A model generated the notes under the pieces. That model searched no databases and was not told the DNA's origin. It saw only the letters and a program-made list of their open reading frames with translations. Both the position numbers and the translations under genes were made by a program. A DNA stretch of 64,000 nucleotides from Fistulifera solaris (lineage: Eukaryota > Bacillariophyta > Bacillariophyceae > Naviculales > Stauroneidaceae): the NCBI GenBank assembly GCA_030295235.1, contig AP026134.1:1116001-1180000 (forward strand), written 5' to 3'. Position 1 is the first letter of the stretch, and each line of letters starts with the position of its first letter. Positions 1-61,212 of the stretch are shown piece by piece.

Positions 1-1124
1 TGACGCGGTGCTGATTGGCTTTCTCCCTGGACCTAGTGCCGCGCGAGCCGTCGTCGATATCGTCACCGGTCGCGTAAACCCAAGTGGACGTCTTCCAATC
101 ACCTACCCATCATTTGACGACGGAGGTGGTGTACCTTACTTCCGTGCTGTGTCAGATCAGTGCACGTTAGGAGAAGGTCTCTTGCCGCATTGGCAGTATG
201 GACCATGTGAAGTTCAGTGGCCGTTTGGTCACGGACTGAGCTTTACGGAGTTCGAGTACAGTCAATTTCGTGCAACTGGTGGAATCGATAGGGATCTCAA
301 CCTCTCCATTATCGTCAAGAATAGTGGAGACAGAGCTGGCGCGGAAACTGTGATGTTCTTTACGTTTGATGACTTCCGTCCAACCACACCCGAATATAAG
401 AGATTGCGAGCATTTGAAAAGGTATTTCTGCACCCCGGTGAGGAAAACAACTGTCGAGCTGACCGTTCCGTTGGACAGTCTACGATTCGTTGGATCTAGC
501 GATGATAGTCATTATGTGATTGACCCTTCAATGACTTCCTGGGTTGGCGTGGGACACGACACAGACTGTCGGTATGCGAGAGAAAAAGATAGCGAACTTT
601 GTATTCATCTCGTGGCACAAAACCCCCGTGCAACCTACAGTGGTGCATGCGAAGCTGCCTGCAATGTTTGGCGTGAAAGCAACTGTTCCATCGTCTTTGG
701 TATGGTGGCGGATCGATGCGTTGACATGTGCTTTGACGACGGACGCTATCTCTCAAAAGAAGACGGTGGTGATCACGAAGGTTGGGGTTGGAACTACGTA
801 AAGTGCATAGAATCTGTCGTTTACGGCTTTCAGGAGTCCGGATCAAAGGACCAATGCTGGCAGATGACATCTTTGTGCCGCGATATTTTTCATACCAGTA
901 GCTTGTACGAGTCTGGATCAAGCTGGAGACATGATCGATCGTCATTTCAACAACAAGGCGTACCCGAAGCCAACTATGTTGCTTTGGTAATTGGATTGGT
1001 TGCCAGTGCTGTCGTGTTTGTCTTGATGCGTGGAGGTTGGGGCAGTTTTAAAAGGCAACGGCGAGAACCCGGGAACGCAGAGTTGGAATTTATGGCAGTT
1101 AATACCCAAGAAGTGCCTGCCTAG
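1..1124 (+). CDS. GH3 beta-glucosidase, 3' part, membrane-anchored (frame break)
   Basis: This is the C-terminal part of a glycoside hydrolase family 3 enzyme; the gene enters from the left edge. Visible GH3 C-domain marks are NPSGRLPITYP and WPFGHGLSFTEFEYS, followed by a fibronectin-III-like domain (HPGE ... VELTVPLDSLRFVG). The reading frame changes near position 443 (ggtgaggaaaac). Dropping one base there, or adding two A, joins FLHPGE to TTVELTVPLD, so I annotate one gene. After the Fn3 part comes a Cys-rich stretch of about 130 residues and a single membrane helix (YVALVIGLVASAVVFVLM, near 975-1030) with a short basic tail, so the enzyme is probably anchored with its catalytic part outside the cytosol. 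GH3 enzymes release glucose from beta-glucans; in a diatom chrysolaminarin oligomers are a likely substrate (inference). The active-site half lies outside the window. Confidence 0.8.
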
Positions 1125-1437
1125 GAAGGAAAGATGTTATGTACAAGTAGATCGATATTTATTGTAAGGTCTTAGCAACAATACAGTGGTCAGGCGTCCT
1201 CAAGCAACATTTGTCTCGAAAGCGTATACTAGCTTGTAGTGCATCTGGAGAAGCAATGAGAAGTATCGCATCGTCACCAGCACTTCTTGTATCAACGACT
1301 AAACAGAAGCTTTTTTGTGACCATCTCTCAAACGAATTCGAATGACCTAATCGGTAGTTGCCATCATTCTGTACAATATTGTGTTGCAATTGCTCGGCAT
1401 TGTATGGCGGGACAGCGATAAAGAAGAATGAAACTTA
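1125..1437. other. Intergenic, convergent gene ends
   Basis: The spacer lies between the 3' ends of the GH3 gene and the Nudix/eIF2B-like gene. I see no coding signal or repeat; it should hold both polyadenylation regions. Confidence 0.5.
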
Positions 1438-3159: not shown

Positions 3160-4071
3160 CTACGCATCACTGAGCCGTCGAACGCGTTCAATCTCTGTTC
3201 CAATTTTCGATCGAAAGGCCGGGTCATGGTTCAGCCAGTCTTGCAAACAACGAAGCGCATCGTCCATTTGATCTAAAGACGTATGTGCGTCTGCCTGGAT
3301 ACGCCATGCCCGACGACTTACTTGAATTGTCGTAGGCATGGTTAAGGCTTGCTTGGCATCCGTAAGAGCATCCTGATATCTTCCAGAATCGAGAGAAAAT
3401 TCCGATCGCATCACGAGTGCTCTTGCCAGAACTGATGAGCCACCTTTTGGTTCCAGCGTTCGAATCACCGAATTGAATGCATTTACTTTTTCCTCTGCGG
3501 AAGTGGCTAAAAGCATAAGCATTGTGAGAGAAATGTAGTAGATCCAGAGCGTCCTCCACTTCTTGGGGAAAATAGAAAATTCGAGGCAGCTCCCTTGACG
3601 TCTCTTTTGGCTACAAATAGCACCAATCAGGCTATGGTGTAATAGCACTGACGGCGACTCTAATATTGCAGCCGTATTACGTGGTGAGCACGATTTTTTA
3701 CAACGTACCTTGATTAGTTTTCTCCAGTACTGCGATAGCTGCCAAATTTTGCACCGGAATGGCAATGCTTAGACTTTCTAGTGCTGCGGCAGCCTGGATG
3801 TGATCGTTGACACGATGGAGAATATCGGACGACTTCACAATCTGCATATTCGGCCCTTTGTTGCATTTCGAAAGACACCCAGTGCTTCCAACCTCCACCT
3901 CCGATGTCAGATCCTGTAAAATTTGCGGTAGATTGTAAAAGAGGACGATGTCTTACTACCAAAATTGCGACAGCAATCTTTGTTTTGACATACTTGGATC
4001 TTTACGGTAAGCGACGAAGCCAATGGAAAATTGAGCAAGATCAGCACGTAACACACGCCCCTTCTCATCAT
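3160..4071 (-). CDS. Secreted/ER thioredoxin-like [2Fe-2S] ferredoxin with TPR tail (spliced, frame break)
   Basis: The gene starts with ATG ATG at 4071 and a signal peptide (MMRRGVCYVLILLNFPLASS). A thioredoxin-like [2Fe-2S] ferredoxin domain follows: VCQNKDCCRNFGS at 3993-3955, then VEVGSTGCLSKCNKGPN at 3900-3850, matching the four-cysteine pattern of that fold. Between the two motifs the frame shifts; one extra T in the T4 run (plus-strand A run 3937-3940) restores it. An intron of about 202 nt with donor AAG|GTACGT runs 3708-3507. The second exon holds TPR-like helices (LARALVMRSEFSLDSGRYQD, then RRAWRIQADAHTSLDQMDDA) and ends RVRRLSDA. An alternative 80-nt intron (GTATGT at 3993 to TTTTACAG at 3914) would be in frame but would remove the first cysteine motif. 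A role in plastid redox or protein-complex assembly is inference. Confidence 0.65.
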
Positions 4072-4982: not shown

Positions 4983-6371
4983 TCATGGTATTACGAGACA
5001 GCATGCTATTAATACGCTCCGTAATATTGATTTCGTCTTCGATACCGGCGTTGTACTCCTTTGCTGTCCCAAAATGTCCTTGCGAATCGAGTCACACAAA
5101 ATGCTGAGACGCAATGATCCTTGGAAGGGATCTTCAATCGTATAACCGATTTGATACACTCCGAACAATACCCACGCGATGGCAGCGACCACCGGAGCAG
5201 TCATTAAACCCATGTCTTTGATTAGCGCAAACGGTAAAGTAAAAAGCCACAGTGTCAAGCTGCGCAAAGAGTGTCGTGCGTAATTGAGTGGAACCGATGT
5301 CTGGTGAATGCGCTCGCACTGCCCCACGGCGTTGGTCAGCTTTTCAATTTGGGAAAGAAAGCTCAAACGCTCACGACTCGTGTAATTGGGTCCGTATGGA
5401 ACTTTCATGATCTGACGTCCCAAAAAATCGCAGACCCACAACGGGCGATTCGAAGCTTTGGCAACTTCCGGTAGATGCTGGGGCGGCAGTAAACTCCAAG
5501 GCATGTCTCGTTTATCAACATAGCATGGCCGTGAAGGCGGAACTTGCTGCAGTTTATCGCCTTCGAATCTAGAATCTACGGCGAACAGAGACTTTTCACT
5601 GAGCAACAACCGATGATCTGCATCAATCGGGCTTTCATTACACAAACAGCCTGGTCGAATGTGGTGTCTGAGGAGGTAGGGAAACGAGGCAGTGGCCTGA
5701 ATGATGCGATTCACGCGCTCTTTGCCAATCTCTGGTGCATAAAGATACACCATTCGACTCAGATTTCGACTAACAGAAAGAATATTTTCCCAAATCTTTC
5801 TTCCTTCCTGTAAAATTACAAGCAAAGAAGTATGAGCCCGAGATTCGTGCGTAAAACGCGTCTACGAATCGCATCGGTGACTTACACTGAAGCGCTGGTA
5901 GGCACTGTTCGTACGAAAAACCAGTAATAATCCCAACGCAGACACTAACAGTGAATGTGCCGTACCGGGAATGGACATCTTCATTGCCATAGCTTGTGAG
6001 GCGGGGCCACTCATGGCCAAAAAACGATGAACGAGGGATACTACCAGAGACCAGCCTGCTACCGCCAGAACCGGAAATCGAATTTCTCGCAAAATGACCG
6101 ATTGCGGCAGCGAAAGAACATTGTATAAAAAGTCGGATGCGCTGTGTCGATTGTTGATGTGATGTATATCGGCATAAGTGGGATTGGAGCCAAACAAAGG
6201 CCCCCTCGCCGTAATTTGAGTGGGATACAAAGACGGCGCAAATTTTGCAACAGCGGGTGATTTCGCTTTACTTTGCTGCAGTGTAAAAGCTACTGCGCTC
6301 GGTAATGTCTGCTGTAGTAAAACTACGAATGATATTATTGAAATTCTCATGGTCGCTGTTATGTGATTCAT
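4983..6371 (-). CDS. Plastid-targeted bestrophin-like anion channel
   Basis: Two exons, 6371-5886 and 5807-4983, are joined over a 78-nt intron (donor AGT|GTAAGT, acceptor TTTTACAG). The join gives FRTNSAYQRFS-EGRKIWENILS, the conserved bestrophin/UPF0187 segment (FRTNSAYxRxxEGRK..W). The protein is about 436 residues. The leader MRISIISFVVLLQQTLPSAVAF is a signal peptide ending in A-F, the diatom plastid junction. Membrane helices appear at VLAVAGWSLVVSLVHRFL, AHSLLVSALGLLLVF and, near the C-terminus, LTLWLFTLPFALI and TAPVVAAIAWVLFGVYQIG. The C-terminal EDPF motif (YTIEDPFQGSLRL) is a further family mark. Bestrophins pass chloride or bicarbonate; thylakoid members in green algae serve the carbon-concentrating mechanism. 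A similar role here is inference. Confidence 0.88.
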
Positions 6372-8030: not shown

Positions 8031-8049
8031 AGTTTCAATATCTCTGTGT

Positions 8050-8489
8050 TCAAATATCATTGTGGGCCAGAATTTCTAGTCGTAGTTTGGATGAATTCGT
8101 TGTATTTGATACCTCTTGCGTAGATGATGATGATGATGAAGTCTTCTTGCTTGCTGTTGCGGTTGCTGTTGAGATGGGATTGAATTGTGTTTCATCTACT
8201 ACCAAACGCCATTTACTTTGATATCGATTCGAATGATCCAATCGTCCCGTGAGACGAACTGGCGGACCCTGAGGAAGGTCCCGATTCTTATAGCTACTCA
8301 CAACCGCTTCACCAAAGCTTTGTAAAATACGTTCACATACATGTTCATCGAATTTTGTTGGTTCATCTTTTGCATTTCTTGTAAAACCTCGAGTAACGTT
8401 GTCGCCATGACACCTTGACACGACAAATCGGTGGCGATGGTTTCCGGTACCTCGGGAAGTCCGTTCCAGAGTTCCGATTTTGATTCCAT
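8050..8489 (-). CDS. TFIIA small subunit (gamma)-like protein (frame break)
   Basis: Two overlapping frames make one gene. It starts at the ATG ending at 8489 (MESKSELWNGLPEVPET), runs through ATTLLEVLQEMQKMNQQ, then must change frame at the A4 run (plus-strand T run 8353-8356). One more A gives QQKFDEHVCERILQSFGEAV. The order is a helix pair (TLLEVLQEM and ERILQSFGEAV) followed by a beta part (VRLTGRLDHSNRYQSKW, RLVVDETQF). This resembles TFIIA-gamma, whose helices end in QFD..I..AL and whose barrel reads G.L.tYRFCD.VWTF. The usual N-terminal Y..ST motif is missing. TFIIA stabilises TBP on promoters. A Ser-rich tail (SSSSSST) precedes the C-terminus. A divergent unrelated protein remains possible. 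Confidence 0.5.
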
Positions 8490-8499
8490 TTCTTTTCAA

Positions 8500-9097: not shown

Positions 9098-10525
9098 ATG
9101 GGTAAAGGAGGAGACGCTAGTGCTGCTAACAAGGCCAACAAAATCAGTTGGAGTCAAGTGAAGGAGCATTGCACTCCCGACGATGCTTGGGTCGTTTATC
9201 AGAACAAAGTATACGATGTCTCCAATTGGCATGAACATCCCGGAGGCGCCGTCATCTTTACGCACGCGGGTGACGATATGACGGATATCTTTGCGGCATT
9301 TCATGCGCCGGGTTCGCAGAATTTGATGCAAAAGTTTTACATAGGTGACTTGATTCCGGGTTCGAATCAGAACAAGACGGAACACCAAATCGCTTTTGAG
9401 AAAGGATATCGAGATTTGCGTTCGAAACTCATCTTGATGGGCATGTTTAAATCGAATGGATGGTTCTATGTCTACAAATGTGTTTCCAACATGATGTTGT
9501 GGGCGACAGCCGTCGCTATGGTCTACTATTCCGAGTCAGTAGCGGTGCACATGGCTTCGGCTGTTCTACTCGGTCTCTTCTTTCAGCAGTGCGGATGGTT
9601 AGCGCACGATTTCTTGCATCATCAAGTCTTCCGTCAACGCAAGTACGGTGATCTGGGTGGAATCTACTGGGGAAACTTGATGCAAGGATACTCGGTGCAA
9701 TGGTGGAAAAACAAGCACAATGGACATCATGCCGTCCCCAACTTGCACAACTCGACGGCTCTTAGTCAAGATGGTGACCCGGATATTGATACCATGCCTC
9801 TCTTGGCGTGGAGCTTGAAACAAGCGCAGTCCTACCGCGAGCTACAAGCCGATGGAAAAGATTCCGCGTCGGTTAAGTTCTTGATCCGTTACCAGGCCTA
9901 CTTTTACTTTCCGATCCTCTTGTTGGCTCGTCTTTCGTGGTTGAACGAATCCTTCAAGACCGCTTTTGGTCTTGGGGCTGCTAGTGAGAATGCTGCTTTG
10001 GAACTCAAAGCCAAGGGTCTGCAATACCCCATCCTCGAAAAAGCCGGCATCCTTTTGCATTACGCTTGGATGTTTGTTGTATCTAGTGGCTTTGGTCGAT
10101 TCCCGGTATGGTATGCTACCACTTACTTTTTGGTAGCGACTGCGTCCTGTGGTTTCCTTTTGGCCATTGTGTTTGGTCTCGGACACAATGGCATGGCGAC
10201 GTACGATGCCGATGCGCGACCGGACTTTTGGAAACTCCAGGTCACCACCACTCGTAACATTACGGGTGGACATGGATTTCCTCAGGCGTTTGTCGATTGG
10301 TTTTGTGGTGGTCTGCAATACCAAGTTGACCATCACTTATTCCCCTCGCTTCCCCGTCACAACTTGGCCAAGACCCACGCCTTGGTCCGATCCTTCTGCA
10401 AAGAGTGGAATGTTCATTATCACGAAGCTGATCTGGTTGACGGAACTATCGAAGTGCTTCAACATTTGAGCAAAGTCTCCAATGACTTTCTCTTGGACTT
10501 TGTGAAGGATGGTCCCACTATGTAA
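9098..10525 (+). CDS. Delta-6 fatty acid desaturase (cytochrome b5 front-end type)
   Basis: The 475-residue, intron-free protein has an N-terminal cytochrome b5 domain (WHEHPGG near residue 47, then FAAFHAPGS) and a front-end desaturase domain. The three histidine boxes are HDFLHH (residue 170), HNGHH (207) and QVDHH (409); the Gln in the last box marks front-end enzymes. Four hydrophobic segments place it in the ER membrane with the di-iron site facing the cytosol. By recall it matches the P. tricornutum delta-6 desaturase over its full length with many substitutions, so I read it as the ortholog in a related species. It would introduce the delta-6 double bond into 18:2 or 18:3 on the way to EPA. 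Delta-5 or delta-8 activity cannot be fully excluded from sequence. Confidence 0.93.
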   Translation: MGKGGDASAANKANKISWSQVKEHCTPDDAWVVYQNKVYDVSNWHEHPGGAVIFTHAGDDMTDIFAAFHAPGSQNLMQKFYIGDLIPGSNQNKTEHQIAFEKGYRDLRSKLILMGMFKSNGWFYVYKCVSNMMLWATAVAMVYYSESVAVHMASAVLLGLFFQQCGWLAHDFLHHQVFRQRKYGDLGGIYWGNLMQGYSVQWWKNKHNGHHAVPNLHNSTALSQDGDPDIDTMPLLAWSLKQAQSYRELQADGKDSASVKFLIRYQAYFYFPILLLARLSWLNESFKTAFGLGAASENAALELKAKGLQYPILEKAGILLHYAWMFVVSSGFGRFPVWYATTYFLVATASCGFLLAIVFGLGHNGMATYDADARPDFWKLQVTTTRNITGGHGFPQAFVDWFCGGLQYQVDHHLFPSLPRHNLAKTHALVRSFCKEWNVHYHEADLVDGTIEVLQHLSKVSNDFLLDFVKDGPTM

Positions 10526-12043: not shown

Positions 12044-14603
12044 ATGATGAGTGAACCAAACGATGAGAACAACAAGAACCAAAGCGCACCATTAAAGCCT
12101 GAAGCAGTAGCATCTACAAATACAGCAGGAACAGTAGAAGTAAGCAAAGAGACCGTCAACGCGGAGGTGCCAGTGAAAAGACGAAACCGAGAAAGAGCAA
12201 TGCGAAGAAGAATGCCGCGGAGAAACGAAACAAAAGGCAACCAACCGAGGCTATCCTCCAGGAATGCCTCATCATGGTATGAAGTATCATCATCCACCCC
12301 CTTACATGTCGATGGCGCCCTACGGTATGCACGGCCCACCGCCTCCGTACGGCAAAGGACCTCCTGGAAACGCTTACAAAGGAGCTCCTTACCCTCCGCC
12401 GCCTCACTACCCCCATGGCCACATGACGTCGTATCCTCCTCCTGGAGCTTACAAATATCCTCCCCCGCCCCACTACATGCACGGCGGTCCACCGAACTAT
12501 CATTATCCGTATCCTGGAGTTGGGGGAGTGCCCGGTGCACCCGCCAACACCGCTGCAAATACAACCAAAGCGAAGGGTGGCAAGAAAAAGAAGAATTCAG
12601 CTGCTGCAGCTCTTCCTCCGAGTGCACCCGCTCATGCGCATCCTCATGTTCTTGCTCCTACGATGAAGGCTCTTCCGAGTATACATGATTCACGTGGCAT
12701 GGGGGCTCTGGCGCAAGTTGGAAGTACACCCAGTGGGGCATCGGATCCACCGTCGGCCATGAACACGCCCGTTCACAAATGGACCAAGGAGGAAGAAAGT
12801 ACAATCAAAAAGTTTGTTGAGGAAAAAGGAGAAGATGACTGGAATCAGCTAGCGGAACAGATGCCCAATCGTACACCCAATGAAATCAAAGATCGGTATT
12901 ACAAAATGACAAGAGGTGCTTCATCGGTAAAAGGGGCTTGGACGGAAGACGAAGACGCCAAAGTTATGGAGCTGGTGGGTAAACACGGAGCCCGCAAGTG
13001 GTCTGTCATTGCTAGCCATCTCCCAGGCCGTGTCGGTAAACAGTGTCGCGAGCGCTGGCACAACCATCTGAACCCTGAAATCAGCAAAGAAGCGTGGACA
13101 TTGGAAGAAGATCGAACCATTCTTGAGTGTCATATTCGTGTTGGGAATCGCTGGGCTGAAATGGCTAAGCTGCTTCCTGGAAGGTATGTATTTATTCATT
13201 GTGTTGAACGTCAAAAGTATTGAAACAGCACTGGCACTCATTCGAAATCACACATCAGGACCGACAATGCCATCAAAAATCATTGGAACTCTTCCATGAG
13301 AAGAAAAATTGAAAAGTACTTGGCCAAGATTCGGGGCTGCGAGCCAGATGACATCGAGCCCGCGGAAGACGGAAGATACGAGTTCTACGGAGACTTTGAA
13401 GGTGTGTTAGCCGCTGTCCGTGGAAGCGAGCCTCCAAGTACAGAGGGAAAGAAAAAGATTAGTTCGACCGAACGACGTGCGGCAATTGTAAAGAAGGGAA
13501 ACAACAATGGTCTGCCTCTGCCGTATTATCACTACACGCCGTACATGCCTCCTCCCGGAATGTATCCGCATCATCCGATGATGGGTCACATTCTTCATAA
13601 CCGAAGCCATCCGTTCACTCCTTGGGCAAATCCAGCAGACAGAGATACTCGGCCAACCACATCCCCTGCTGCTCGTACAGGTTCGGGCGTTGGTACCCCT
13701 ATCCCGGCTCTTGACGACTCAGTCCCTTATGACGAAGGCAACTTGACGACGGTAAAGAAAACTGTGTTCGATTATACTTTCGGCTCTCCTCAGCCACGCA
13801 GTTCCAGTCCTGTTCCCATGAGTATACAAGGAATGACACCACCTTTGTCGTGCTTAAAAGACATTTTTGCTACGCCGGGTCCGCTGGAGCTTCTCAGACG
13901 ATCGCCAGATGCCGGGATGAGTTTGAACAAATCTCTTTTCACTGACGGTTCGTCATCGCTGACCCCATTTGCGAAGACACCAGGGCCAAAAGACCAGTCT
14001 CCTATGAAGCCCATTCGCATCAGTATGACTGGTGAGAATGATAATAGCTCGCTCATACTGAACATGCGACTTGGAGGACAGGTCGGTATCTCTCCACTTC
14101 AAAAGCGTTCTAGTCAGCGCTTCGTCTTCAGTGACGAAGGAACATTCGAGAAAGAAAGAACCGCAGAGTTCGTCGATTCCGATAAGCAAATGATGCCTCC
14201 ACCTACTTCTGCTCGCCCAAAGGAGATTCTCTCTTCCCGAAAATCTAGTCACAACGAAGACATGTTCAGTATGTCACTAGACTCTTCCGAACAGACCCCA
14301 AGACCTATTTCACAGACTTTGTCGCCAAAACTGACTGGTTCGATCACCAAAAGTAACCGCGTCAAGCATCTGGCCGCCACGCCTTCGACTGCTGCAACTG
14401 TCGAACAATCGTTTTGGAGCGACCAGATTGATATGAGTCCTGTTCCGACGCTTAGTCCTTTTCAAACTCCTTCCGTTGGTATTAAAACGGAGCACGACGC
14501 AATTGTATCGCATGGTGAATCTACGAAAAAAGTACGACCGTGTGATTCTGTAGACGCGTCCCACCCGTCCAAACGAAGAAAAGAGGATCTTTCTAACCAA
14601 TAA
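12044..14603 (+). CDS. Three-repeat MYB (MYB3R-like) transcription factor (frame breaks)
   Basis: Three SANT/MYB repeats are present in order: KWTKEEESTIKKFVEEKG, GAWTEDEDAKVMELVGKHG and EAWTLEEDRTILECHIRVG, each with its C-terminal W or Y. A 75-nt intron (13184-13258, donor AAG|GTATGT) interrupts repeat 3 so that LLPGR joins TDNAIKNHWNSSMRRK. The N-terminus is Pro/Tyr/His-rich and low in complexity. The start at 12044 (MMSEPNDENN) is out of frame with the main body. Either one more A in each of the runs 12176-12179 and 12232-12235 restores a basic linker, or one base fewer near 12176 restores an acidic one. The C-terminal 400 residues are mostly disordered, with SCLKDIFATPGPLELLRRSP as a possible conserved patch. 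MYB3R proteins bind mitosis-specific promoter elements; that role here is inference. Confidence 0.87.
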
Positions 14604-14705
14604 ATTGAATCGCACTATAAATTCACTATTTTAAAAGAAACAGATTTGTTTTGTATTTCTATTCACACCAGGTATCGCTCTTGAACTGATTGACCCAAAT
14701 GCACT

Positions 14706-44924: not shown

Positions 44925-46527
44925 ATGTCTTTTCAAAAGGAAACACTAGTTCCTCTGGTCGACGATAGTGATCATGATGCAAAGAATCTTTACCCCAGCG
45001 ACGACGATTTTGACGATGAAGGCCTCGCTGATATGATGCCAGAACAGCGCTTTGAAGCGCGTATGGCAGAACGATTATCGGTTCGTTTATTAGCGATTTC
45101 AGATGACGACGAGGGAGGGGTATCACAGAGAACTGCGGAAATCTCTTCGTTTGCTGCGTGTGAGTTCTTCTGGTGACTTAGAGTCGAAGCCATCTGCTAC
45201 TGCGTTATTTGTTGACAAGGACTTTGATTTCATAACACTAGCACGTCGACACCTCTGGATAATGATATTGATTGCTGTTGTTGGGTTGTTTATCGTGGGG
45301 AGTGTTCTATGGTGGGGCGTTCGGTTACTAGGTCCTCCATATCAACCAGCAGGGCCGTATGAATTGATTGAACGACAAGAAGGTGAAGATTTCTTCCAGT
45401 ACTATACGTTCTATGAGGGAAAGGATTCGGCTGGCTCGGATGGGTATAATATGTATGTGAATATGCAGAAAGCGAAGGATATCGGTATTGTCAATGTCAC
45501 AATGGAAAGCGACGAGTTGGATGTCTATCAATTTGGGGGTGAGACGGATGTACAGAAAGGAAACAAGGACGAGCCCTTCGTGTACATGCTATCGGCGCCC
45601 ACGCCGGAGGGTCCACGAGACTCGATCCGACTAGAAGGAATCCGGCGTTTCAATCGTGGTCTCTTCATGTAAGTGTCGTACCGAGTAGGCTAGCCTATGT
45701 CGATGGCCTCAATCTCACTTTGGTTATCTCTCTCAAGAATCGATGTACGACACATGCCTACAGGATGTGGAGTTTGGCCGGCTTTTGGTTGACCGATGAA
45801 GCAAATTGGCCGGTGAACGGTGAAATAGATATTGTTGAAGGTGTAAATTATCAATCAGAAGCAAAGACGGCGCTGCATTCGACGAAGGGGTGCTCGATGA
45901 CAGATATTCCATTAGGAGTGATGACAGGCACGTGGGATACTGCACAGGGGATTCCTGATGCAAAGACAGGCATTCCTGATATGACTCTTCGATACGCACG
46001 TAACTGTTTCGTTTATGATCAACATCAATGGCTGAATCAGGGATGTGTCGCTGTCGACCAACAAGGCGGAACACTAGGCGGGCCGCTGAATGAAAAAGGC
46101 GGAGGAGTATATGCACTAGAATGGGACCCTATCAATCGCCACATACGTAGCTGGGTTTTTACTCCTCACAGCACTGTTCCAGAAAACCTTGTACAAGCTA
46201 TTCGAACCGCCAGTCTTCCCCCCTGAAGACCGGATAGATCCAGATCCTTCTTTGTGGCCTATTCCGTACGCATATTACGCAATTGGGGATGAAACTGACT
46301 GTCCATCTTCTCATTTCCGTCACATGAGATTGGTGTTTAACACTGCTTTTTGTGGGAGCGTCGCAGGAAACCGATACCAAATGGACTGTCCGAAACAGGC
46401 CAAGGATTTTCCAACTTGCAATGCGTGGGTAAAGAGCGATCCAGACGAAATGAAAGATGCGTATTGGAAAGTTCGTGGTGTTTACGTTTATGAGCGGAGA
46501 TGGGAACGAAGGCTGACAAACTATTAG
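44925..46527 (+). CDS. GH16 beta-1,3-glucanase-like type II membrane protein (three frame breaks)
   Basis: Start at the ATG at 44925 (MSFQKETLVPLVDDSDHDAK), acidic cytosolic part, then a membrane helix (LWIMILIAVVGLFIVGSVLW) and a luminal or extracellular GH16 domain. The domain has FFQYYTFYEGKDSAGSDG, then after a 69-nt intron (45669-45737, donor AT|GTAAGT) VRHMPTGCGVWPAFWLTDEA and the catalytic motif GEIDIVEGVN. TALHSTKGCSM and WDPINRHIRSWVF follow. Three breaks: G run 45117-45120 (one too many), T run 45783-45786 (one too few, restoring WPAFWLTDE), C run 46218-46223 (one too many, restoring SLPPEDRIDPD). The family cleaves beta-1,3-glucans. In a diatom it may act on chrysolaminarin or cell-surface callose; this is inference. 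Confidence 0.85.
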
Positions 46528-47521: not shown

Positions 47522-49053
47522 TTACAGATAGAGTTAGAGTCCTTGAGTTGAAACTGAATAGATCGTGACTGCGATGTTTTATCGGTATTCCAGCAATCGG
47601 ACTTCTTGGGCAACAGAGAAAATCTATAATTCCAAAATTATTGATCTCGGTAGTATTGTGATTCCTTTTCGTTCGAATGCATCATCTTTCACTATTCAAA
47701 AACACTTGTTGCAACTACGTGTCGAACTTATTTGAACGTCGTGCCTTGTGCCTTAAATCCGCTTCAGATGAAGTGAAAATTGCCCCGTCCCATGTCCTAA
47801 GTAGTCTTTCATACATATTTCGTCGCCACTAAAGCACTTATACTCGACGTCGTCCTTTCCCTGGCGTCAAAACGACTTGATTGATCGTTTGCTATTGGGG
47901 TAGGTAAATCATTCGATTTTAAGAGACTTTTGGTCAGAGAGCTCCAATTTCGTAGAACAATAGACGTGACGCAACTTCGATAATCTTCTAGAACGGTCGG
48001 TCTGTGTAGTCGCTTTCCTTTGTGAACAGGCAGTAGATCGCCGCTACCTCGCTAAGATTGCTTGCTTAACTTTTGATTTGACTGGCTGTACGAGCGCCTG
48101 CCGTGTGGAGAATAAGCTGTTCGCCGCGTTGCAGCCAATAACCCTCTCTCGCGCGCAAAAAAACTATCTCTTCCACTATTCGACGTTTTTTACTGAGCCT
48201 TCCGTTCCGCCATTCCGATAAAATAGCGCCAGTATATTTTTCACGCATATTAGTCCGTTTTAAATCTTTCTCATCGAGTATTTGCACATCATTATTCTTT
48301 TCGTGCAAGGAGGTATGCAAATGAGGGTTTTGCGCGTTTTGGGTTATCACAATCATCTTGTGCAAAAGGGTTAGAAGTAACGATGATGCTATACGCGGCT
48401 GAGCGTTGAGCCTGCGTTGAGCATGATTGCTAGAATTGGTTGAAAAGAAAATTGCAAAAGGCAGCTGTAACTAAATATAAGTTTGTTAAAAAGAAAGGAG
48501 GTTAGGTAGTCTAGTGGTCAACTGCTGGTCTACTGTATTGATTCATGACTAAAATGCAGTCGTGGAAAAGTTGATACAACACTTTGGGGCTGTAGTGAAT
48601 ACGGAAGACCACGATCCCTAAGGCATTCGTGTGCGTACACTGAAAATGCTGCTACTATGAGTGAGAACTGATGAAGTAACAAACGTAACGTCAATAGGTT
48701 TGCAGAACAACCGAACGTTAGGTGGCAATCTGGTGATTCATGACTGATATGCAGTCGTGGCGAAGTACAGTCTACACTTTGGGTCTATAGTGAATAAGGA
48801 AGTAAACCATCCCTAAGGGCGTTTCGAAGTAAAGAATCCATGCTTGCATTGCATAATAGCTGCTTAAGAAACGAAATGCTGAATAAAGAACTGCAGCTCA
48901 ACAAGCTTGCACAACATGCGAAGTTTGAGTAGCTGTCGGGCTCAAAAGAATACTGATTCACGACTGAAATGCAGTCGTGGCAAAGTTTGGAAGAAGTCCG
49001 CATGACGAACGGACAGCAACACCACTTAGCATGCATGCATGCCATGCAAATGA
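47522..49053. other. Intergenic; right third holds hairpin repeats
   Basis: Up to 48480 I see no gene; a 99-codon minus-strand frame (48066-48365) is unsupported. From about 48500 to 49000 there are three decayed repeat units, each with a GACTG/CAGTC hairpin. Confidence 0.45.
48500..48990. repeat. Three decayed repeat units with hairpins (copies 3-5)
   Basis: Hairpins lie at 48544-48564, 48739-48759 and 48959-48979; the last, cacgactgaaatgcagtcgt(g), is a perfect 8-bp stem with an AAATG loop. Units one and two also share an ACACTTTGGG block, then a TAGTGAATA block and CCCTAAGG. Spacing is 195 and 220 bp. Confidence 0.75.
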
Positions 49054-50933
49054 ATGATGGAAGTTGAAGATACAGAAGAGATTTATGATTATGATGATTT
49101 CCTTGATGACGATCTAATTGAAGAATTTGTATCCGACCCTGAATTAATGCTTTTGGTTGATGCACGAAATGCATTTAATGAAATCAGCCGACTTTCACTT
49201 CTCTGGACTGTCCGCCATCTTTGGCCACAAGGATCTCGATTTGCATTCAATTGCTATCGCCATGCTTCAACTCTCTTCATTCGGAAACAAAATGAATTTG
49301 CCATGACGATCCAATGCAGAGAAGGAGTTGCTCAAGGAGACCCCTTGAGCATGATCCTTTATGGACTAGCTCTTGCTCCAATTACCCAAACCATTCGCAC
49401 CGAAGTCGATGACATTGTATCACCTTTCTACGCCGACGATGCAGCATTTGCAGGTAAAGCGTCCAGTATTGACAAGGCAATGCAAATTCTTATGCAACTT
49501 GGTCCAGATCGCGGTTACTTCCCAGAACCCGAAAAGAGTATTGTTGTATGCCGTAAATCCGACGAACAAAGCTGCAAGCTCATTCTCGAGAAATATGGGT
49601 TTCAGTACACACGCGGACATCGATACTTGGGAGGATTTATTGGCTCATCAGTCGAACGCGACAAGTGGGTTACGGCAAAAATCAATGAATGGGTAAGCAC
49701 TCTGACGACACTTTCCGAAGTCGCCAAAAGATACCCCCAAGCCGCCTATTCAGGATTTTGTCGGTCACTCCAAATGGAATGGCAATACGTCCAACGAGTC
49801 ATTCCTGGAATATCTCATCTCTTTGCACCCCTTGAGAAATGCATCCAGAAGAAATTCCTCCCGGCACTACTTGGCGAAGATCAGCCGATCACGGGTGACT
49901 TGCGGGAAATTCTCTCTCTCAGCACAAAGGCAGCGGGGATTGGCATTTGGAACCCGGTAAAGACATGCGAACACAACTTCTCTACCTCACAAGACATCAC
50001 GAAACTCATCTCAAACAGTTTATACAGCAACACAGAATTAAACGTTGGAGAGCATCTTTCACATGCCACAGTAGAGAAAAACAGTGCCGCAAAAATCCGA
50101 TTTCAAAACGAAATTCAAACGCTTGACGAAATCTGTATTGGAAGACCAGATGAAAGGCGAAGACTTCTTCGAGCAAAATCGACAGGAATTTGGCTCTCGG
50201 TGCGTCCACAGACATTCACGGACACCGAACTCTCAAAAGACGAATTCCGTGACAGTCTACGAATTAGCTCAGGACTCCCAATTCTTGATCTCCCCAAGAA
50301 GTGTGATGGATGCAATAAACCGTTTACAGTCGAACATGCACAACAATGCAAAAACGGTGGACTTGTTATCCAGAGACACGACGATCTGAAAAGCGGAATT
50401 CATGTCTCTTTGCACGCAAGCCTTTGGACCCAAATCTGTTCGCTGATGAGCCTACCATTCACACATTTGGCAACAGCAACAACAGTACACAGGTTCAAGA
50501 GCTTCGAGGAGATGTTTCGGCCTATGGCTTTTGGAATGAGAGACGAACGACCATTTTCGATGTCCGAGTTACTGATACCGACGCACCGTCATACAGAAAC
50601 CGTGACCCGATTAAGGTTCTGGCTTCTCAAGAGCGTGAAAAGCGTAGCATGTACGGACCCCCTTGCCACGAACGCAGACGAGACTTCACTCCCCTGGTCT
50701 TTTCCATTGACGGAATGATGGGACAACAGGCTATTTCAGCATCGAGACAGCTTGCAAGAAAACTTCAGCGGAAGTGGAACAAGCCATACTCCGAGATCTG
50801 TGGCTTCATCCGGGCGCGCATGAGTCTTTCCCTGGTCAGGTCAGTTAGTATGCTTCTGCGAAATCCAAGAGAAGGAATGCCAAAACGGAATCCCCCTCAT
50901 TGGGAAACGGGCTCGGGACTGGCCCTCTACTAG
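49054..50933 (+). mobile_element. 5'-truncated non-LTR (LINE-type) reverse transcriptase, frame broken
   Basis: The frame starts with an unrelated acidic leader (MMEVEDTEEIYDYDDFLDDD) and enters the reverse transcriptase within motif A (LLVDARNAFNEISR). GVAQGDPLSMILYGLAL is motif B, FYADDAAFAG is motif C with the catalytic YADD, and GHRYLGGFIGSS follows. Earlier fingers motifs and any endonuclease are absent, as expected of 5' truncation. After CDGCNKPFTVEHAQQCKNGG, a CCHC-like Cys/His patch, the frame changes near 50410-50440 to the C-terminal conserved block ELRGDVSAYGFWNERRTTIF, DVRVTDTDAPSYRNRDP and TPLVFSIDGMMGQQA, ending at 50933. Similar RTs are common in stramenopile genomes. The copy looks inactive. 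Confidence 0.85.
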
Positions 50934-51280
50934 CGCACTAAGGCTAGGGAGTTAGAACCAAAGCTTACTCATTGAAGTGTCAGACTGAAATATATGTGAA
51001 TGAAAAGTGGAAAATTCAGTCGAATGTCAAGATTAGATTCTGACGATTAAAAAATTAGGAATAAAATATATATCTTGAATGCTGTACCGGTACCTGGGAA
51101 CGTCGTTAAAATTCTTCTTCGTCGTAGACGCTACGTAGAATCTTGTACTTGGAGGCAGAATTTTAACGTCCTTCCCTGGTATGCTGTCCGTGAATCCGTG
51201 AACGTTTATACCACCAGGTACCAGTACAAGTAATCAAAAGAAGTGAATTCATCATAAATTCATAATCAAGACCTCTGCCA
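50934..51280. other. Intergenic with MITE-like nested inverted repeat
   Basis: The spacer upstream of the EMC5 gene contains the nested inverted repeat at 51084-51227. No other feature is seen. Confidence 0.5.
51084..51227. repeat. Nested inverted repeat, possible MITE remnant
   Basis: Outer arms gtaccggtacctgg (51084-51097) and ccaggtaccagtac (51214-51227) pair with one mismatch. Inner arms cgttaaaatt (51104-51113) and aattttaacg (51159-51168) pair perfectly. A degenerate relative of the inner part lies at 62855-62940. Confidence 0.65.
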
Positions 51281-51607: not shown

Positions 51608-51816
51608 TGGAAAGATAGAAACAAGCTCACCAAGTTATTGAGCTGACTAATAAATAGTGAGAATCGCGCTGCAATGAATTTATCTCCAGTTGGCAAGACA
51701 TATAATCTCCTAGTGCGTCATTTGCTTAATCTGACTTTTTCTGATATTGAATAGAAGCTCTATTGCATGGCACTCTAGCAAACATAGCTCTATAATTTAC
51801 GAAGTGGAACTTAAAT

Positions 51817-52778
51817 TCAAAGAAGAAAAAATGCCAAAGCATGGAGGCAATCGTAGGCTGCTTGTTGCTCTGGTGTGAGAAAACCTGTAGGATGGTCCTT
51901 GACAAAAGTGTTTTTCACAGGTAGGATGGGTGGATCATGATGCTGTGGCGTTGGATTCAGGAAATCATCGGCTTCATCTGTCAAAGCCTCTGGCATAAGA
52001 AATTCCCAAAGTGCTTCATCAGTTATTGAGACGCACGACGAACACACTGAATTATCATAGTCGCCGTAATGCTTGTCCTCGTGGATCGTTTCCAAACCTG
52101 TCTGCAAGGCGAATTGTAGATGCCGATGCGAGTTTCGATCTGACGCATGCTGCCATTGGAGTTCTGAGACGACTGCTTTTGAGGTTTGCTCGTTACACGT
52201 TTGGGCAAGTTTCGGCGGTACAGGAATGCTATCCTCGTCGTCCTCAATCCAGCACTCCTCCTTCATTTCGTCAGCTTTATCGTCAAACATACTGGAGTGG
52301 AACATCGATTGATGTATATCACTACCAGACTCGTTCACTGGGGAAGGGACAAAGAAAAAGAAGCTGTCGACGGCGTTCGCTCCACTGTCCTTTTGGTCGT
52401 CGGAGGCTGCATCCCACGGGGCTCGATTGATACCAAAATTGCTTTCCCAAAGATCTTGACTCATTTCCATGGAGTCGTCTTCGACTTCACTGAGGCTGGG
52501 TGTCGTCGAGCAAGATGACGCTGGTGATAGAGGAAACCATTTTTCAACTTGGGTGAGGGTGATGGTGATACTTGACCTGAAGAATCTTGGGGTGGAAGTA
52601 CAAAGTTTGTATCCTTCAGAGATGCAGAATTCAATCCGGTTTGAATAACCAGTGATTCTTTTCCGAATGGGAGATGAAAGCTTTGTCGATTCGCACAATT
52701 CTCGTCGTCGAGTTCAATAGAAGTAGGTTTCATCATCTCTGTGTATGTGCACATTGTTTTTGGCATACTTCCAAACAT
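51817..52778 (-). CDS. Orphan disordered protein (frame break)
   Basis: About 320 residues from ATG at 52778 (MFGSMPKTMCTYTEMMKPTS). The frame changes at an A5 run (plus T run 52540-52544); one more A joins SPSPSPKLK to KWFPLSPASSCSTTPSLSEV. The chain is rich in Ser, Asp, Glu and Pro, with acidic patches (ECWIEDDEDSIPVPPKLAQT). It ends in a short ordered-looking segment (TGFLTPEQQAAYDCLHALAF). I do not recognise it; a regulatory role is only a guess. The tail pattern could serve as a search seed. Confidence 0.5.
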
Positions 52779-53473: not shown

Positions 53474-56400
53474 ATGGCTCACTCCTTAACGTGGATCACT
53501 TCGTGGCTATGTTTCATTCTACTTTGCACGCGACTATTTCAACAACAATGCTATTGCGTTGCGCAACATGATGGCCTGCTTTCTCAGATGCAATGGACGG
53601 ATATGGATAATCACAAGCGGCTGCGGGTTAGTCTACGGAACAGTCAACTGCAAGAAGCAGAAGCAGCGCAAGTTTCTTTCGCTCAACTTGAGTTACACAA
53701 CATTCATCCCACCGAAAGCACAATAATTTATTCTGTATCGACCACCATGGAAGAGACTTCATGGGCAGATCCTTCAACAGGGAAAAAGCGCTACTGGTTG
53801 AGTGCTTCGGAAGAGAACGACACAGAGAACGATCTGCACACAATCATGTCGGAAGAAAATAAAGAATATCGTCGGCAAATGCACGTCAGTCAAATACCGG
53901 GGAACTTTTTGCAATTGGGACCGGATCAAGTCGCCGTCTTAGCCTTGAGTTTCTTTCCGCGATATCCAGCCAATCATGAAACGCACAACGTGCAGCAGGT
54001 GCCTTCATTTTATAAAGATGATCCACCGACATATCAAAGTAAATACGAACACGCAGACTGGAATGACTGGGTTCAATCTACCAGGAGTCGACGAAATAAT
54101 GCCTTGTCCGATACTTTTCACAGGAAAGCATCTTATCAAGTCAAGACGACGTTAGTGATTGAAACAAACACAGAAACACTGAGGATACCAATCAGCGGGA
54201 CGAGCGTCTTACAGAATAAATATGGCATACCAAGCATGATTATGCTCGGCAATAAAGTTGAAGAGGAAGCTCCGCAGCAGGAGCAAGTTCTCAATCAACC
54301 TGAGGATGCCTTTGTCGTGAGTCGAATTCATCCTCAGCGAGGAGGAATGAGCTACACCGAGCAGGACAATCTCACGAAGAGATCAGATTGCTTTGATGTT
54401 TATATTAGACACCCATACCATTCAAGAAGATGGAGCGACCGCTGGTACAGTGAAGAGCCAGATATTGATCCTCCGGTGGACAATCTTGAGGTAAAGGAAG
54501 TATCTGTAACTAGACCCGACTTGGTTGGTTTGCGATGGAATCGCGAAAAAGGGGTTTCAGCCGACAATAGAGCGGTTTTACGCAAAAGTATTAGTCGATG
54601 GAGTGACGGTAGACCTTTGACTGTTCCTCCCGATAACATGCCTCATTATTTTGTGACGGTATGTGCGCTTACTGATGATGGTTTTAGTAGTGATAGATCG
54701 GCAATTTTTGAGTCCGGCGACGAGCTGATCGACTCCTTTTCAAACCAGCCTGGGAGTATGGGATTTTTGCAAATAAGGACGTCGCACGATAACTTATTGG
54801 TTGCCTTAGAGGAAGAGAGGATGGTGGCAAGTGAGGATGCTTCAATTCAAGATAGTAAGAAAGGCGATAATCTTAATCAATCGAGAAGCGGGCAAGAAGT
54901 TGAATCAAGTCTTTTGAAGGCGACTGCGGCTAGTCAGAATATACTGCGTGCACTGCCTGAAAGCCTGCAGCACGTGTTTGTATTGGCACGCGATGGACAT
55001 GTCAACGCAGCTAATGAGACGTTCAGATTTGGTATAAAGAATGAAAATCATGATGGCATCAGAATTCTTCGTGCATCTATTGTCACGACGTCTTGCTTTG
55101 ATGGAATAACAATTCGTTTGAAAGAGTTCAATCCCACCTTGTCTGAAATGATTTCAGGGCTGACTGTCGTTTCTGACGCTCTATCATTTGAGTGCTCCGT
55201 GGACTGGGATATCTTGCTTCGAAATTCACCTTCGGCTGATTTTTCGGTCGAAGGGTCTATTATTATCCGAGCTACTGTTATAAACCGATCAAAGCAGGGA
55301 ACGCAGTACGATACAGACACTTTTCGCAACTCTGTCCTTCTTGAGATACCGTGGGGTATTCGTTTCGTAACTGGGAACGTCATTCTTGCAACTGAGAAAA
55401 AAATCCGCTGGTTTTTTGAATCTGGGACGTCAAATAAGTAATCGGTTCCGTACTGTGAAAGGGGTCTTCTTTCCTTTTGATCTTCGCTCGATTGCTGCAT
55501 TGGATCAATCGACCCTCATCGTGGAAAACTTGGTGGTGTTATCTGACATGGGAAATATAATTCGTTTGAACGAGGTTCGTGTATCTGATGAACTAGAGAG
55601 TTCGCAACAGGGTACTCCGCGTACCGTATCGCACTGTTCCCGGCTCGAGGCAAAATTATCCAACGAAGTACCTTCTAGGGAGGACGGAAGACTAGGTCTG
55701 ATCACTTTAACTTATCGTTTGCTCAACGAAGTTGACTGGCAAAGTTCAGAGGAGGGGCATGGTCATTTGCCGACATGGTGTTATCTCAGCTTTACGACTA
55801 TGCCTAGCACAGGCCAACATATAACACCCGTTGTCATATACAGTGGTTCCATCGACGTCACTGGAAGTCCCTCCGTCACGACCGCGGGGCGTGAAACCAA
55901 ATTAAAGGTAGAGCTTCAAGATCAACACTGGAATCATGCCGTTGGGGTGGATAGCATTGTTGACTGGCTGAATACTGCTCAAGTTGGATCGGCATTTTCG
56001 GCGCTAGTCGACGGTCCAAGAAGTATAAGAGACGCTCCGAAATGGGGGAAGAATGATTTGAAGCGATATTTTTACAATCTTAATGGAAACATCGGCAGGC
56101 GGCCCTATTCCAGACTGGTACCAGTGTTGTTGAACGTAGGGGCAATTCTGCAGAGTGATGTTGAATCTGTGCCGCTGTATTTGACAAATCACAATCCAAT
56201 TCCAGTCACTGTCTCCATTGATGTGAGTGAAGTGGAGGGGTTGGCCATCATGTTGGGGCAAGATCAATCGACTGGAAGCGGTGATGGCAATCATCCCCTA
56301 GACTATTTGCCAAACAAATTCTCGAAAACAGAAAGCGTTGTCGACGAAAATAAGATTTTGAGTGGGACATTCGCTGGGCATCCTATAGATGGACTGCGCC

Positions 56401-59400
56401 AATTTCTGCTTAGGGACGTCGCCGTCAACAAGTACTTTAGTCAGTTCGCATTTCGAGACGCAGCTTCGTTGAGCAAATATGCCATTTCACGATCGTCTTT
56501 CTTAAGGAGCTTATTCAAAGATAGCGCTTACGAAACATTTCATCGCAAGGGAGCGAATTTCAACCGAGAAGATGGAGGTTGTGGAACCAGCGACTTCCCT
56601 GAGACGTATGGTCCTTTTTCTCGCACCATAAACGGAGGTGGTGTTGTTCTTGGTCCGATCGTTTTATCCGAAGATGGTAGAAAAGTACGGAGAACGAGAG
56701 TTTGTCGCGGAGCTGTCGAGAATAGTGTCACGATTTCCCCTGGTGGATATGTGAGATTTGATGTCTTCGTCCGATCCCCTCCCGCTGCAGTGCTCGAACA
56801 AGACATAACTAGATTCTTGTCCACTGGTTTGCTGCTTTCGACCGACCATGGGCAAATCATACCAATTCTAGCAAATTTTGAAGCGTTGCAGGGCAAGTTA
56901 GACGTCTCACATATTCCCTCGCCAATCATTAACTCTGAATCTCGCGAGGGAATTATTCATGTCCCAATTGGATTATTTAGTAAGCCATCATCGGCAACCG
57001 GAGAATCAAAGCCAGTTTATATCCCACCAAGTGCTAAAGACGATGGACTGTTTGTGGCTCAAGTTGCTATTTTATCCAGGAATGTCAGCGATGTTAATAG
57101 AGTGTCGCTTTTTATGCGATCATCTTTTTCTCACGATATCAAAGTGCGACGCATTGCAAGCTGTAATCCTTGGTTTAAAGTTGAGCTGTCAGACACCACG
57201 GAGGAGCTTCTTCCGACTTTTGATCCGTTCTTGGGCGTAAATATTGGAGCTGTCAGCAGTAATGCCATGTGCAACAGTTCGACCGACATAACTGGTGAAG
57301 CACCATTTCCATCGTTTTTCCGTTGTGTGACGAGTTGGTTACTTCAAAGGGCTGAGCTGCAACCGAGGGGCTGCGGCCCGCTTCCGCTTATTGATGGTCG
57401 ACTCAACTTCAAATCCGACGTTCCCGCAGACATTGCTTTGGATAAGGTGGTTCGAATTTTAGAGAAAGCAATTGTTGCCTTCGAGCAGAGAGACGCAGAT
57501 ACAAAAAGCGATCTCTATAATGTCGAAACGGACAAATTTGACTCTCCCCGCTACCCCGCCAAGAATCGATCAGGTGATGGAATCGTGTCGCCTGGCATTT
57601 TACGCTCGGCAGCTCAAACGTCGGAAGCCTGGAAAACGATTTCTGATCTAGGATTGCAAGTCATTGCTACGAGTCTTCGAGCAATAATCGAATACAATGG
57701 GACATCCGGGGTTCAATTTCCCTCGTTAGCGATAAAGTACAAGAAGATAACCCGGTTTTCTCGGTGGTAATTCGAAATGTGACAGTTCTATCAACGTTGG
57801 AAATACCACGACTTGTCGATTTTCCTTCGGCACGCTATAAATTTCCGTTCTTCTCGCGTGGTGATAATTATCATCCTTCTACCCTAAATTTCCCAGCAAC
57901 ATTAGTGGGCTCACTTACTTCAATAAACATCCCTCTTCACAATCCTACGGCAGTCCCAGTCCGTGTTAGACTGACGGTTCCTCCATTCGCCAGAGGTTCT
58001 TCTTTGAAGAATCGGGAAGGACCTTTCGCGGATGCGGCCGTGAAGAAGTTTATCGGTCAGTGGCGACCGCCTTACATTCAAAGCAGCTTAGTAGATAAAA
58101 TGAGCACAACAGAAGAAGGAAACCGATTTTGGTGGGGACCGGATAAAGCTTATTTTCAAGCAGATTCGAATGGAGATATAACAAGATCACACCAAAACGT
58201 TACAATAAAAGCCGGATCGGGAGCCAAATTTACTCTTATTGATCCATCAGTCATGTTCAATATTGCCTTCTTAGCGGGCTGCGGAAGGAGGTGCGGGCTT
58301 CTTGAAGATGGTAGTAAACAGAAAAGAGCTCCATTTGTTCATGGCTTGGTTGGTTTGATACCTATGAGCCCGATCGGTGCTTCTGCTGCCGCCGGTCACT
58401 TTTTACTCGGGCGAGGGCCTACATTGTCAAAGGACAATAAGAATAGGTTGGGAGACGGTTTTGAATCAGGGGGGTCTATGATGCTCAATGGGCGCGGGCC
58501 CTCTGCATTTGCCATTGCCAAGGAAGGGCTTAATGAGATCATAATACCGCCTTTTGGCAAAGCGGAGCTGGGTCCTATATTTTTCCGCCCCCCTGGGCGT
58601 TCTACCAGATTTGGTTGTGCTGCACAATTGGGGCGTTCGCCTCATGACCACTGTGAACAAGCGACCTTTGAATCATTGGTGTTTCTCGAAAACTCGCTAT
58701 CTGGAATTGAAAGAATTGTATTAACCGGGAAATCTATGTGGACAAAACTAGAGTTTGTGGACCCTGATCCTATGCCCAACGAAGATGACTTCGGCGATAT
58801 CGTATTTCGACACGGGAAACCGAGCTTGATGTTCTCTGGCTCAGCATCAGTCACTGAAGGCTACCCACGCCCCGTAGTGAAACACCTTTTTCTTCATAAC
58901 TTTGGCGACTTACCAGTCAATCTGACTAAGATGTCGATTATCCACGATGAATTGTTTTCATCACACTCTGTCTTGTGCAGCACCGGAGGTTTCGATTTGC
59001 TTACTAGTTTTCGGAGGGATGCTCCCCATGCAATACTCTTACCTGGTGGCAATTTTTCTTTGTCCATTCAGCACCGACCGGCTTGCAACAAAAGAACGGA
59101 TTTTGTGACACTTTCAATTGAGTACTCATACAGAGAGATGGAGAACAACGACGCTGTGTTCACAGCTTCAAAGCTTCCATTTCAGAGACATAGTGTGAAT
59201 CTCACAATCGGTTATGATATGTTGGACTGGGAATTTCGATCATGCAAACCTCTCAGGACGAGTTGGTCTACGGAGAACTGGTGCACCGAAAGTTATAACT
59301 CAACGACCTCAACAAACAACGTCGTGGACGAGAATCATGCTGTTCTGTCGACGCTATGTTTCGTGTTACTGAAGTTGTTTGCCATAACCATTGTATTGAA

Positions 59401-61212
59401 GCAAATGTTTGGGCGATCCGTGGCTCGACGTACACAGACCATCATTTTTCATCATTTTTTGAAACGCGGCCAAAGGGGGGAATCCATGCTGAATCTCGCA
59501 TTGGCCCACGAGATGGGCAAAGACTGGTTTGCCGCTTTTAGATGTTTGGCGCGAGTTGAGCCGTCCTTGCTAGATCTACAAACACTTGGACGAGAACAAA
59601 CACGGCAGATTATCCTACATCGATATCGCATGATGAAAATTCAACCACCTCAGTTTTTCACTGGAGCTGGGATCTTCATTAGAGAGATGCATGGTACTAT
59701 CAAGCAACCGGGTTCGATGCGTACTCTTGGTGATGGTCTGTTTGGAAACTTTGTACCCTCGAAAACTCGAATTTACGGGCGCTTTCCCTGTCAACTCGGA
59801 TGGCGAACGGCTACCGCGAGAGGTATTATTCAAAGCACCACGGTAAATCCTACGCTGCACGCGCTAGAAACAATTAGCCTATACGAGCGTCGTATCGCTC
59901 AGCATGCATCAACCGATGACAGCCAGGGTGATCAATCCTTTGATGCAAGCGAAAGTAGCGACATTAGTATTACGTTCAGTAATGGTGCTGAAACTATGGA
60001 TGCGTCGTCGGATAAAGCAGATTCTTCAAACCCTAAAGGTAACGCAGGATTAACGCCTTCCTCTGCAGAGTTAAAACCTCTTTCAAGCGTCGCTTCAGTG
60101 GACAAGACGCGCAAGGCATTTGAGGACGAGCACGAGGAAACGGAGCAGTTTGAAATACCCACCAAGGTGAAATCAGATCTAAGCTCTACTATACCACCCT
60201 ACCAGCAAAGCAAAGTTTTAAACACAGCGCAGAAGAAAATTGAGAGAGCACCTAAGTGGTCCGCAGAGAAGAATATTGTCCAGCTATCGAAGAGACCGAC
60301 GGCTAAAGATTCACGAGAACCGACCGAAGATGTCAAATTGATCATTGTTAAAGACTCTAACCACAGTAAAATCTCAAAACATCAAAGATCTAATGAGAGT
60401 CGCAAAAACCAGCCCCCCAGAACAACACGGGAAAATCAGGTTCGGGACGCTCATCTGAGACAGACGTAGCTTCGGAGACGAAACGAACACATCTCGTCAA
60501 TAAGGTTCAGACCCAAACAAACCCTTGGAAATTGTCGACGTCTATAGAGGGCGGAGAACGCGACAAAGAAATCCCTCAAAATATTCGCCCTCCACCAGGA
60601 TTAGCACCTCCACCAGGTTTCAGCGGTCACACTCCTTCGGAAATGACTGTCGTTGCAAACCCGGACTCCCACTATCACCGACTCTTGAGGGAGGCAGCTG
60701 AAGCGAGTTCGTCTTACAGCCAGCATTTCAATCATACCGAATTGCCGAGTCCGAATGCATTCACGGCTGAACATCCGCCACTTCCAAATTCCCCACCCGA
60801 TCGAAATGACAGCCATTTTCTCACCCACGCTCATGCTCATCGCGCGACGGAAAGTTTTCACATTCCTGAAAGCACGGAATTCGATGTTATGGCGTTTTTG
60901 GACGACATTTTGAATGAAGGTAGTAAGGCGAATAATGGCGTTGCAGATACAAAGGAAAGTGAACCAGAAGGTATCCTTCGCGACGATGAGCCCGCATTCT
61001 CGCCAAACCCTTGGGCGACATCTGATATTTATCAATCTCGCGCTGCTGCGTATGGAATTCTAATTGAAGATGAAAGCACTCGCGGAACAGAGTCGAGTGA
61101 TCTCCCTTTGCTCACACCCGAAGCTATTCTCTCTTCTGCCGTTAGCAACGAAGACGATGAAAGCGTATCTAACGCTGCTGCTTTTTTCTCAGACTTCGGA
61201 GAACAAGGGTAA
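53474..61212 (+). CDS. TMEM131-like giant type I membrane protein (three frame breaks)
   Basis: One gene of about 2,580 codons. It starts with a signal peptide (TWITSWLCFILLCTRLFQQQ). Repeated ASPM/SPD-2/Hydin- or Ig-like beta domains fill the lumenal part, for example AQVSFAQLELHNIHPTESTI, ETLRIPISGTSVLQNKYG and LTSINIPLHNPTAVPVRVRL. A membrane helix lies near 59338-59410 (VLSTLCFVLLKLFAITIVL). A 600-residue disordered cytosolic tail with PPPGLAPPPGF follows. This order fits TMEM131, an ER protein involved in secretory cargo handling. Three frame changes: A7 run 55397-55403 or the nearby T6 run (one too many), near 57745 (one too few, joining IKYKK to DNPVFSVVIRN), and A run 60432-60435 (one too few, joining RTTRE to SGSGRSSETDV). 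Downstream frames stay open across each join. Family assignment is moderate. Confidence 0.75.

Follow-up and report, generated by a model that had tools for sequence, protein, structure and literature searches.

Frame breaks in duplicated genes of a 64-kb stretch of the Fistulifera solaris genome probably reflect consensus errors in a nanopore assembly

A 64,000-bp stretch of the genome of the diatom Fistulifera solaris, referred to here as the window, carries a series of genes that change reading frame at one or more places, and the question it raises is whether these breaks exist in the cell or only in the assembled sequence. The window covers positions 1116001–1180000 of contig C14, which is 1,355,535 bp long, in a genome of 51.7 Mb and 61 contigs. 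A published table entry for the F. solaris assembly gives 62 sequences, 52 Mb and an N50 of 1,355,535 (PMC12159174), and the reference list of the same paper cites the assembly as Fsolaris_ONT_v03, GCA_030295235.1; it is this name, and only the name, that points to a nanopore origin. The original prediction preferred consensus error to decay on the ground that single-copy essential genes were hit. That premise was wrong, because F. solaris is described as an allodiploid (PMC13276009). In a genome search, a 2-kb probe from the window found a second location on contig C13 at 87% identity, and two guide targets from PMC13276009 matched exactly two contigs each. The region C13:1170001–1270000 proved to be the colinear homoeologue of most of the window, in eleven blocks of approximately 82–90% identity; the stretch from 48080 to 51257, which contains a LINE, had no counterpart on C13. 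Since the genes are duplicated on C13, the argument from essential genes fails, and comparison of the homoeologues is a better test of error.

We aligned the homoeologous blocks and applied a model of codon periodicity both to the alignment and to the individual copies. Each site was judged by eye in all three forward frames of the two homoeologues, or of the window only in the case of the LINE, and frames were also read by eye around further gaps that the model had flagged. All 22 frame changes named in the original prediction were borne out by three-frame translation; four had to be moved, from 35450 to about 35379/35380, from 57745 to about 57709/57710, from 60432 to about 60403/60404 and from 8353–8356 to about 8367/8368. 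Two sites were added, a break at 5059 in a bestrophin gene and a compensating partner at about 3983 in a TPR gene. Two positions flagged by the first model, 5812 and 5837, were rejected as breaks, both lying inside a GT-AG intron. The result was 23 gene breaks, together with two one-base differences in the LINE. The automatic per-copy model by itself found only 13 shifts in the window; the list of 23 rests on the frames read by eye. With 40.9 kb called coding by the first model, the 23 curated breaks correspond to roughly one break for every 1.8 kb of such sequence. A base was missing at 15 of them and extra at six, and two were ambiguous in sign.

In the first part of the window, where positions are window coordinates and strands are in parentheses, the GH3-type gene had an A run one base too long at 443–447 (+), with the Pfam domain Glyco_hydro_3_C on the upstream piece; the C13 copy was open across this site and broken instead at 754. 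The TPR-containing gene showed opposite one-base shifts within 3937–3986 (−), a loss at 3940 and a gain at about 3983, and C13 was open there. One base was missing from the bestrophin gene at 5059–5062 (−; Pfam Bestrophin_2) and one from the TFIIA-like gene, so named in the original prediction, at 8367–8371 (−), both open in C13. A cytochrome b5-fatty acid desaturase gene (9098–10525) was intact and highly conserved between homoeologues (pN 0.002, pS 0.247). Two A runs in the MYB gene (Pfam Myb_DNA-binding), at 12176–12179 and 12232–12235 (both +), were one base short, and C13 was identical at both. The FAD monooxygenase gene (Pfam FAD_binding_3) had a T run one short at 17537–17540 (+), identical in C13, and a second site at 17741–17743 (+) where one base was missing and C13 was open. 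At 25647–25649 (−) the HDHD2-like HAD gene had one base extra or two missing, identically in C13, and its two Pfam halves lay in different frames. The two-TM orphan had a run one short in both copies at 29142–29148 (−), and C13 was also short in the adjoining run at 29136.

Farther along, the PPAT-like cytidylyltransferase gene (Pfam CTP_transf_like) had a run one too long at 34658–34662 (−) and a missing base near its start at 35378–35384 (−); C13 was open at both. The start of the eIF2A gene (Pfam eIF2A) had a run one too long at 37675–37680 (−), where C13 was open, the C13 copy being broken at 36026. The SET-domain gene at 40470–40473 (−; Pfam SET) and the HSF gene at 43834–43838 (−; Pfam HSF_DNA-bind) each had a run one short, identical in C13. 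In the gene that the original prediction called GH16 there were three sites: one G extra at 45111–45119 (+) and a T run one short at 45783–45786 (+), both open in C13, and a C run either one too long or two too short at 46218–46223 (+), identical in C13. An orphan gene lacked one base beside a run of five at 52539–52544 (−) and was open in C13. The gene predicted to be TMEM131-like also had three sites, namely an A run one too long at 55397–55403 (+), near which C13 had a different excess base, a missing base at 57708–57713 (+) and another at about 60404–60408 (+), C13 being open at the last two. Pfam supported the names originally proposed for the GH3, HAD/HDHD2, cytidylyltransferase, HSF, eIF2A, SET, FAD-binding monooxygenase and MYB genes. 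There was no hit in the pieces scanned from the TFIIA-like, GH16 (short pieces), TMEM131-like and two-TM genes, and the TPR hits fell below the cut-off.

Comparison of the two homoeologues divided the window breaks into two classes. Fifteen of the 23 were absent from C13, which read straight through at 14 of them and carried the other, nearby excess base at 55397. The remaining eight (12176, 12232, 17537, 25647, 29142, 40470, 43834 and 46218) were common to both copies. Conversely, the aligned genes contained 16 events confined to C13, a count that includes gaps opposite 2683 and 2779. These two gaps, of one base and two bases respectively, lie close to a gene's start and jointly keep the frame; they could be either error or a real compensated change.

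The LINE reverse-transcriptase copy (50389–50447, +; RVT_1 below cut-off) was compared with other copies in the genome. The frame change placed at about 50415 was not a single change in an A run; relative to most of the matched copies there were two separate one-base differences, at 50389–50392 and at about 50446. Copies were matched through exact flanking sequence; of these, 12 of 15 had the opposite state at the first place and 7 of 11 at the second, and the state of the window was common to two and three other copies, respectively. Real variation is therefore possible at the LINE, as other copies share the state of the window. At least 42 places in the genome matched a 1-kb piece of the element, with 40 of the 104 candidates scored. 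Among the matches listed, 12 covered the whole piece, 11 of them, the window included, at 98–100% identity; the family therefore looks recently active, judging by this similarity.

The original prediction had placed the breaks at homopolymers, and this was correct for most sites. Twenty of the 23 gene breaks touched a run of at least four bases or the base adjoining one. When the same intervals, with their widths (up to 26 bases) kept, were placed at random in coding sequence 10,000 times, the mean was 3.8 and the highest count 11. At some sites, such as 3940 and 52540, a single base was missing next to a run, and gains were seen as well as losses. Between homoeologues, the proportion of coding A/T runs that differed by one base was 0/12812 at length 1, 0/3531 at length 2, 4/1149 at length 3, 9/278 at length 4, 2/73 at length 5, 1/15 at length 6 and 0/1 at length 7; that is, 0% at lengths 1 and 2, 0.35% at length 3 and about 3% at lengths 4 and 5. 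A/T runs of 6, 7 and 8 were rarer than predicted by an order-2 Markov model (155, 36 and 7 observed vs 218, 74 and 24 predicted), but runs of 10 were commoner (5 vs 1.8) and so were G/C runs of 5 (131 vs 84), and we set run-length depletion aside as weak proof of error. In 264 kb from three contig pairs, the ratio of five-base to four-base A runs was 0.23–0.24 after C, 0.28–0.49 after G and 0.28–0.37 after T. The low ratio after C would fit a context-dependent loss of bases; it could instead reflect codons.

Indels between homoeologues were recounted with a gap-blind model in three sampled contig pairs, whose alignments comprised 63.8 kb of coding columns and 27.2 kb of non-coding columns, with 44 gaps at mixed boundaries set aside. 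Coding sequence held 39 one-base indels, 26 of a multiple of three and one other; non-coding sequence held 134 one-base, 62 two-base, 102 of a multiple of three and 137 other. Frame-breaking indels were thus of one base in 39 of 40 cases in coding sequence and in 134 of 333 in non-coding sequence (Fisher p 1.8e-13), with at least two of the 39 (5812 and 5837) sitting in an intron and the sole longer coding gap, of 7 bases at window position 16850, lying just upstream of an ATG common to both copies. This recount supersedes one made with a model that penalized gaps by length, which gave 45 one-base, 1 two-base and 16 of a multiple of three in coding sequence, and 140, 63 and 106, with 138 other, in non-coding sequence.

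Sequences printed independently of the assembly, the kind of check that the original prediction called for, allowed a direct comparison at loci elsewhere in the genome, outside the window, dde and glycerol kinase among them. The printed values, T6 and 1827 bp, were taken as stated; their basis is an older assembly together with bench work. Exact matches on the expected homoeologues existed for all 16 distinct primers from PMC13276009 and for eight of the nine distinct gRNA sequences with their PAMs; the exception was gDDE2. Its target is printed in that paper with T6 for both dde homoeologues. The assembly had T5 in both, with frame changes at the run in both. The same source reports that editing with gDDE1 and gDDE2 led to large deletions in both dde genes (PMC13276009). 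The diadinoxanthin de-epoxidase genes, which are genome-editing targets (C7:1176992 and C8:1053874), were each out of frame at more than one place. For glycerol kinase, GK1 and GK2 are both given as 1827 bp (PMC4308894); in the assembly, on C5 and C6, they measured 1828 bp each from matching start to matching stop, and the frame was lost at a different place in each. Among published runs of at least five bases, four could be checked, and two of them (A5 and G6 on C38) agreed with the assembly. By the per-copy model the apt homoeologues had no break in either copy. In two gene pairs, dde and GK, independent sequence from the same strain therefore disagreed with the assembly at the breaks. With a base lost in dde and a base gained in GK, errors of the assembly go in both directions and can be alike in both homoeologues. 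Likeness in the two copies, therefore, does not make a break real.

A rival reading is decay: since the hybrid origin, real indels might have been turning many genes into pseudogenes, in one homoeologue or in both. An allodiploid has a spare copy of its genes, so that loss is allowed, and the 15 window breaks confined to one copy are of the kind that such loss would leave. By an automatic count, 25 of 53 genes in the three sampled contig pairs had lost the frame in one copy or both, and 13 of 53 in both, the latter figure counting against decay. With the automatic model, dN/dS was 0.113 where either copy or both were broken (25 genes) and 0.109 in the 28 unbroken genes, which are alike despite a dS of about 0.30; the model misses some breaks, so that a few broken genes, for example SET and the orphan at 52540, were counted as unbroken. 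In the 13 genes broken in both copies the value was 0.142, a point in favor of decay. Across six copies there were three flagged in-frame stops. One was in an intron, one resulted from a pair of shifts in C13 and one was a real substitution, at C13:1189606 in the C13 TPR gene, opposite approximately window position 3350; none was a stop by substitution in the window's own genes. An intron was considered for C13:1189606 and rejected, since C14 reads through the same columns. This stop suggests that some true decay exists, and the C13 copy of the TPR gene may, from its sequence, be a true pseudogene. As a general matter, however, we found neither relaxed selection nor stops by substitution, nor were the lengths of coding indels like those in non-coding DNA, and the published GK and dde genes were without the breaks. 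We therefore rejected decay of duplicates as the general cause, though not for every gene, and consider it very unlikely to account for the breaks.

The eight shared sites raise the different possibility that the DNA is right and that the ribosome or polymerase slips there, for the same frame change occurs at the same run in both copies. The dde break is also common to both copies, yet the printed sequence gives another run length in both; at this, the only shared site with a printed sequence, the DNA as published does not carry the out-of-frame run. Moreover, the eight sites lie in unrelated genes and comprise sense-strand runs of all four bases, and by eye we saw no motif that they had in common. 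Conserved frameshifting as the explanation of the shared sites is, in our judgment, scarcely credible, and even a single real conserved site hidden among sequencing errors (46218, where TGA follows the C run, might be an example) seems extremely improbable. Nor do unrecognized short introns or gene boundaries offer more than the faintest prospect of replacing the breaks. Short GT-AG introns do occur in the window, and one accounts for 5812 and 5837; at the 14 sites where C13 reads straight through, however, an intron or boundary would be out of place, and at the eight shared sites both frames stay open as far as the run, so that a change of one base would be enough to explain each.

We conclude that the breaks are almost certainly consensus errors of the Oxford Nanopore assembly of F. 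solaris. The preference for error over decay in the original prediction was upheld by the indel spectrum, by dN/dS and by the published dde and GK sequences, the last of which are from genes outside the window; we infer the same cause at each window site, and the reading of runs by nanopore as that cause. On this explanation the assembly would drop single bases, or more rarely add them, within runs that are mostly four to seven bases long or next to such runs; the errors would arise independently in the two homoeologous chromosomes, some of them alike in both because error would depend on the local sequence; and the genes in the living cell would be mostly intact. Among the observations that run counter to it are the eight breaks identical in both homoeologues, which would not be expected from random error alone, and the six gains among the 21 window breaks of clear sign.

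The affected assembly is the reference for an oil-producing diatom that is used in genome editing, so claims of gene loss, subgenome bias and guide design that are drawn from it need checking. Split genes would also inflate gene counts. An annotation on this assembly is tabulated with 26,808 entries in the first column, which we take to be genes (PMC12159174), as compared with 20,455 in the older annotation, made up of 2 × 9007 pairs and 2441 singles (PMC5935921); the annotation methods differ between the two. Among the papers listed for Fistulifera with frameshifts, or with ONT and homopolymers, none reports the problem in its title or in the opening of its abstract. In an allodiploid assembly, comparison of homoeologues offers a route, without reads, to distinguishing consensus error from decay.

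Three known systems resemble what we observed. Subgenome fractionation after hybridization produces pseudogenes among duplicate genes, one copy often being out of frame. The genes in the window are likewise duplicated and often out of frame in one copy; unlike fractionation pseudogenes, they showed no relaxed selection overall, a single nonsense substitution in all copies examined and the wrong indel spectrum. Programmed ribosomal frameshifting, too, involves a change of frame at a run, and at eight sites this was found in both homoeologues; here, in contrast, no common motif was apparent by eye and the printed dde run length differs from that in the assembly. The closest likeness is to the homopolymer errors of Oxford Nanopore consensus sequences, in which indels in homopolymers cause frameshifts (PMC9453082): there, as here, one-base indels at or beside runs interrupt otherwise sound genes. 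The present case differs in that gains accompany losses and some sites are alike in both homoeologues, and in that the two homoeologues make it possible to separate error from decay without reads. The window breaks are most likely an ordinary assembly artefact of this kind, and a misleading one for gene annotation.
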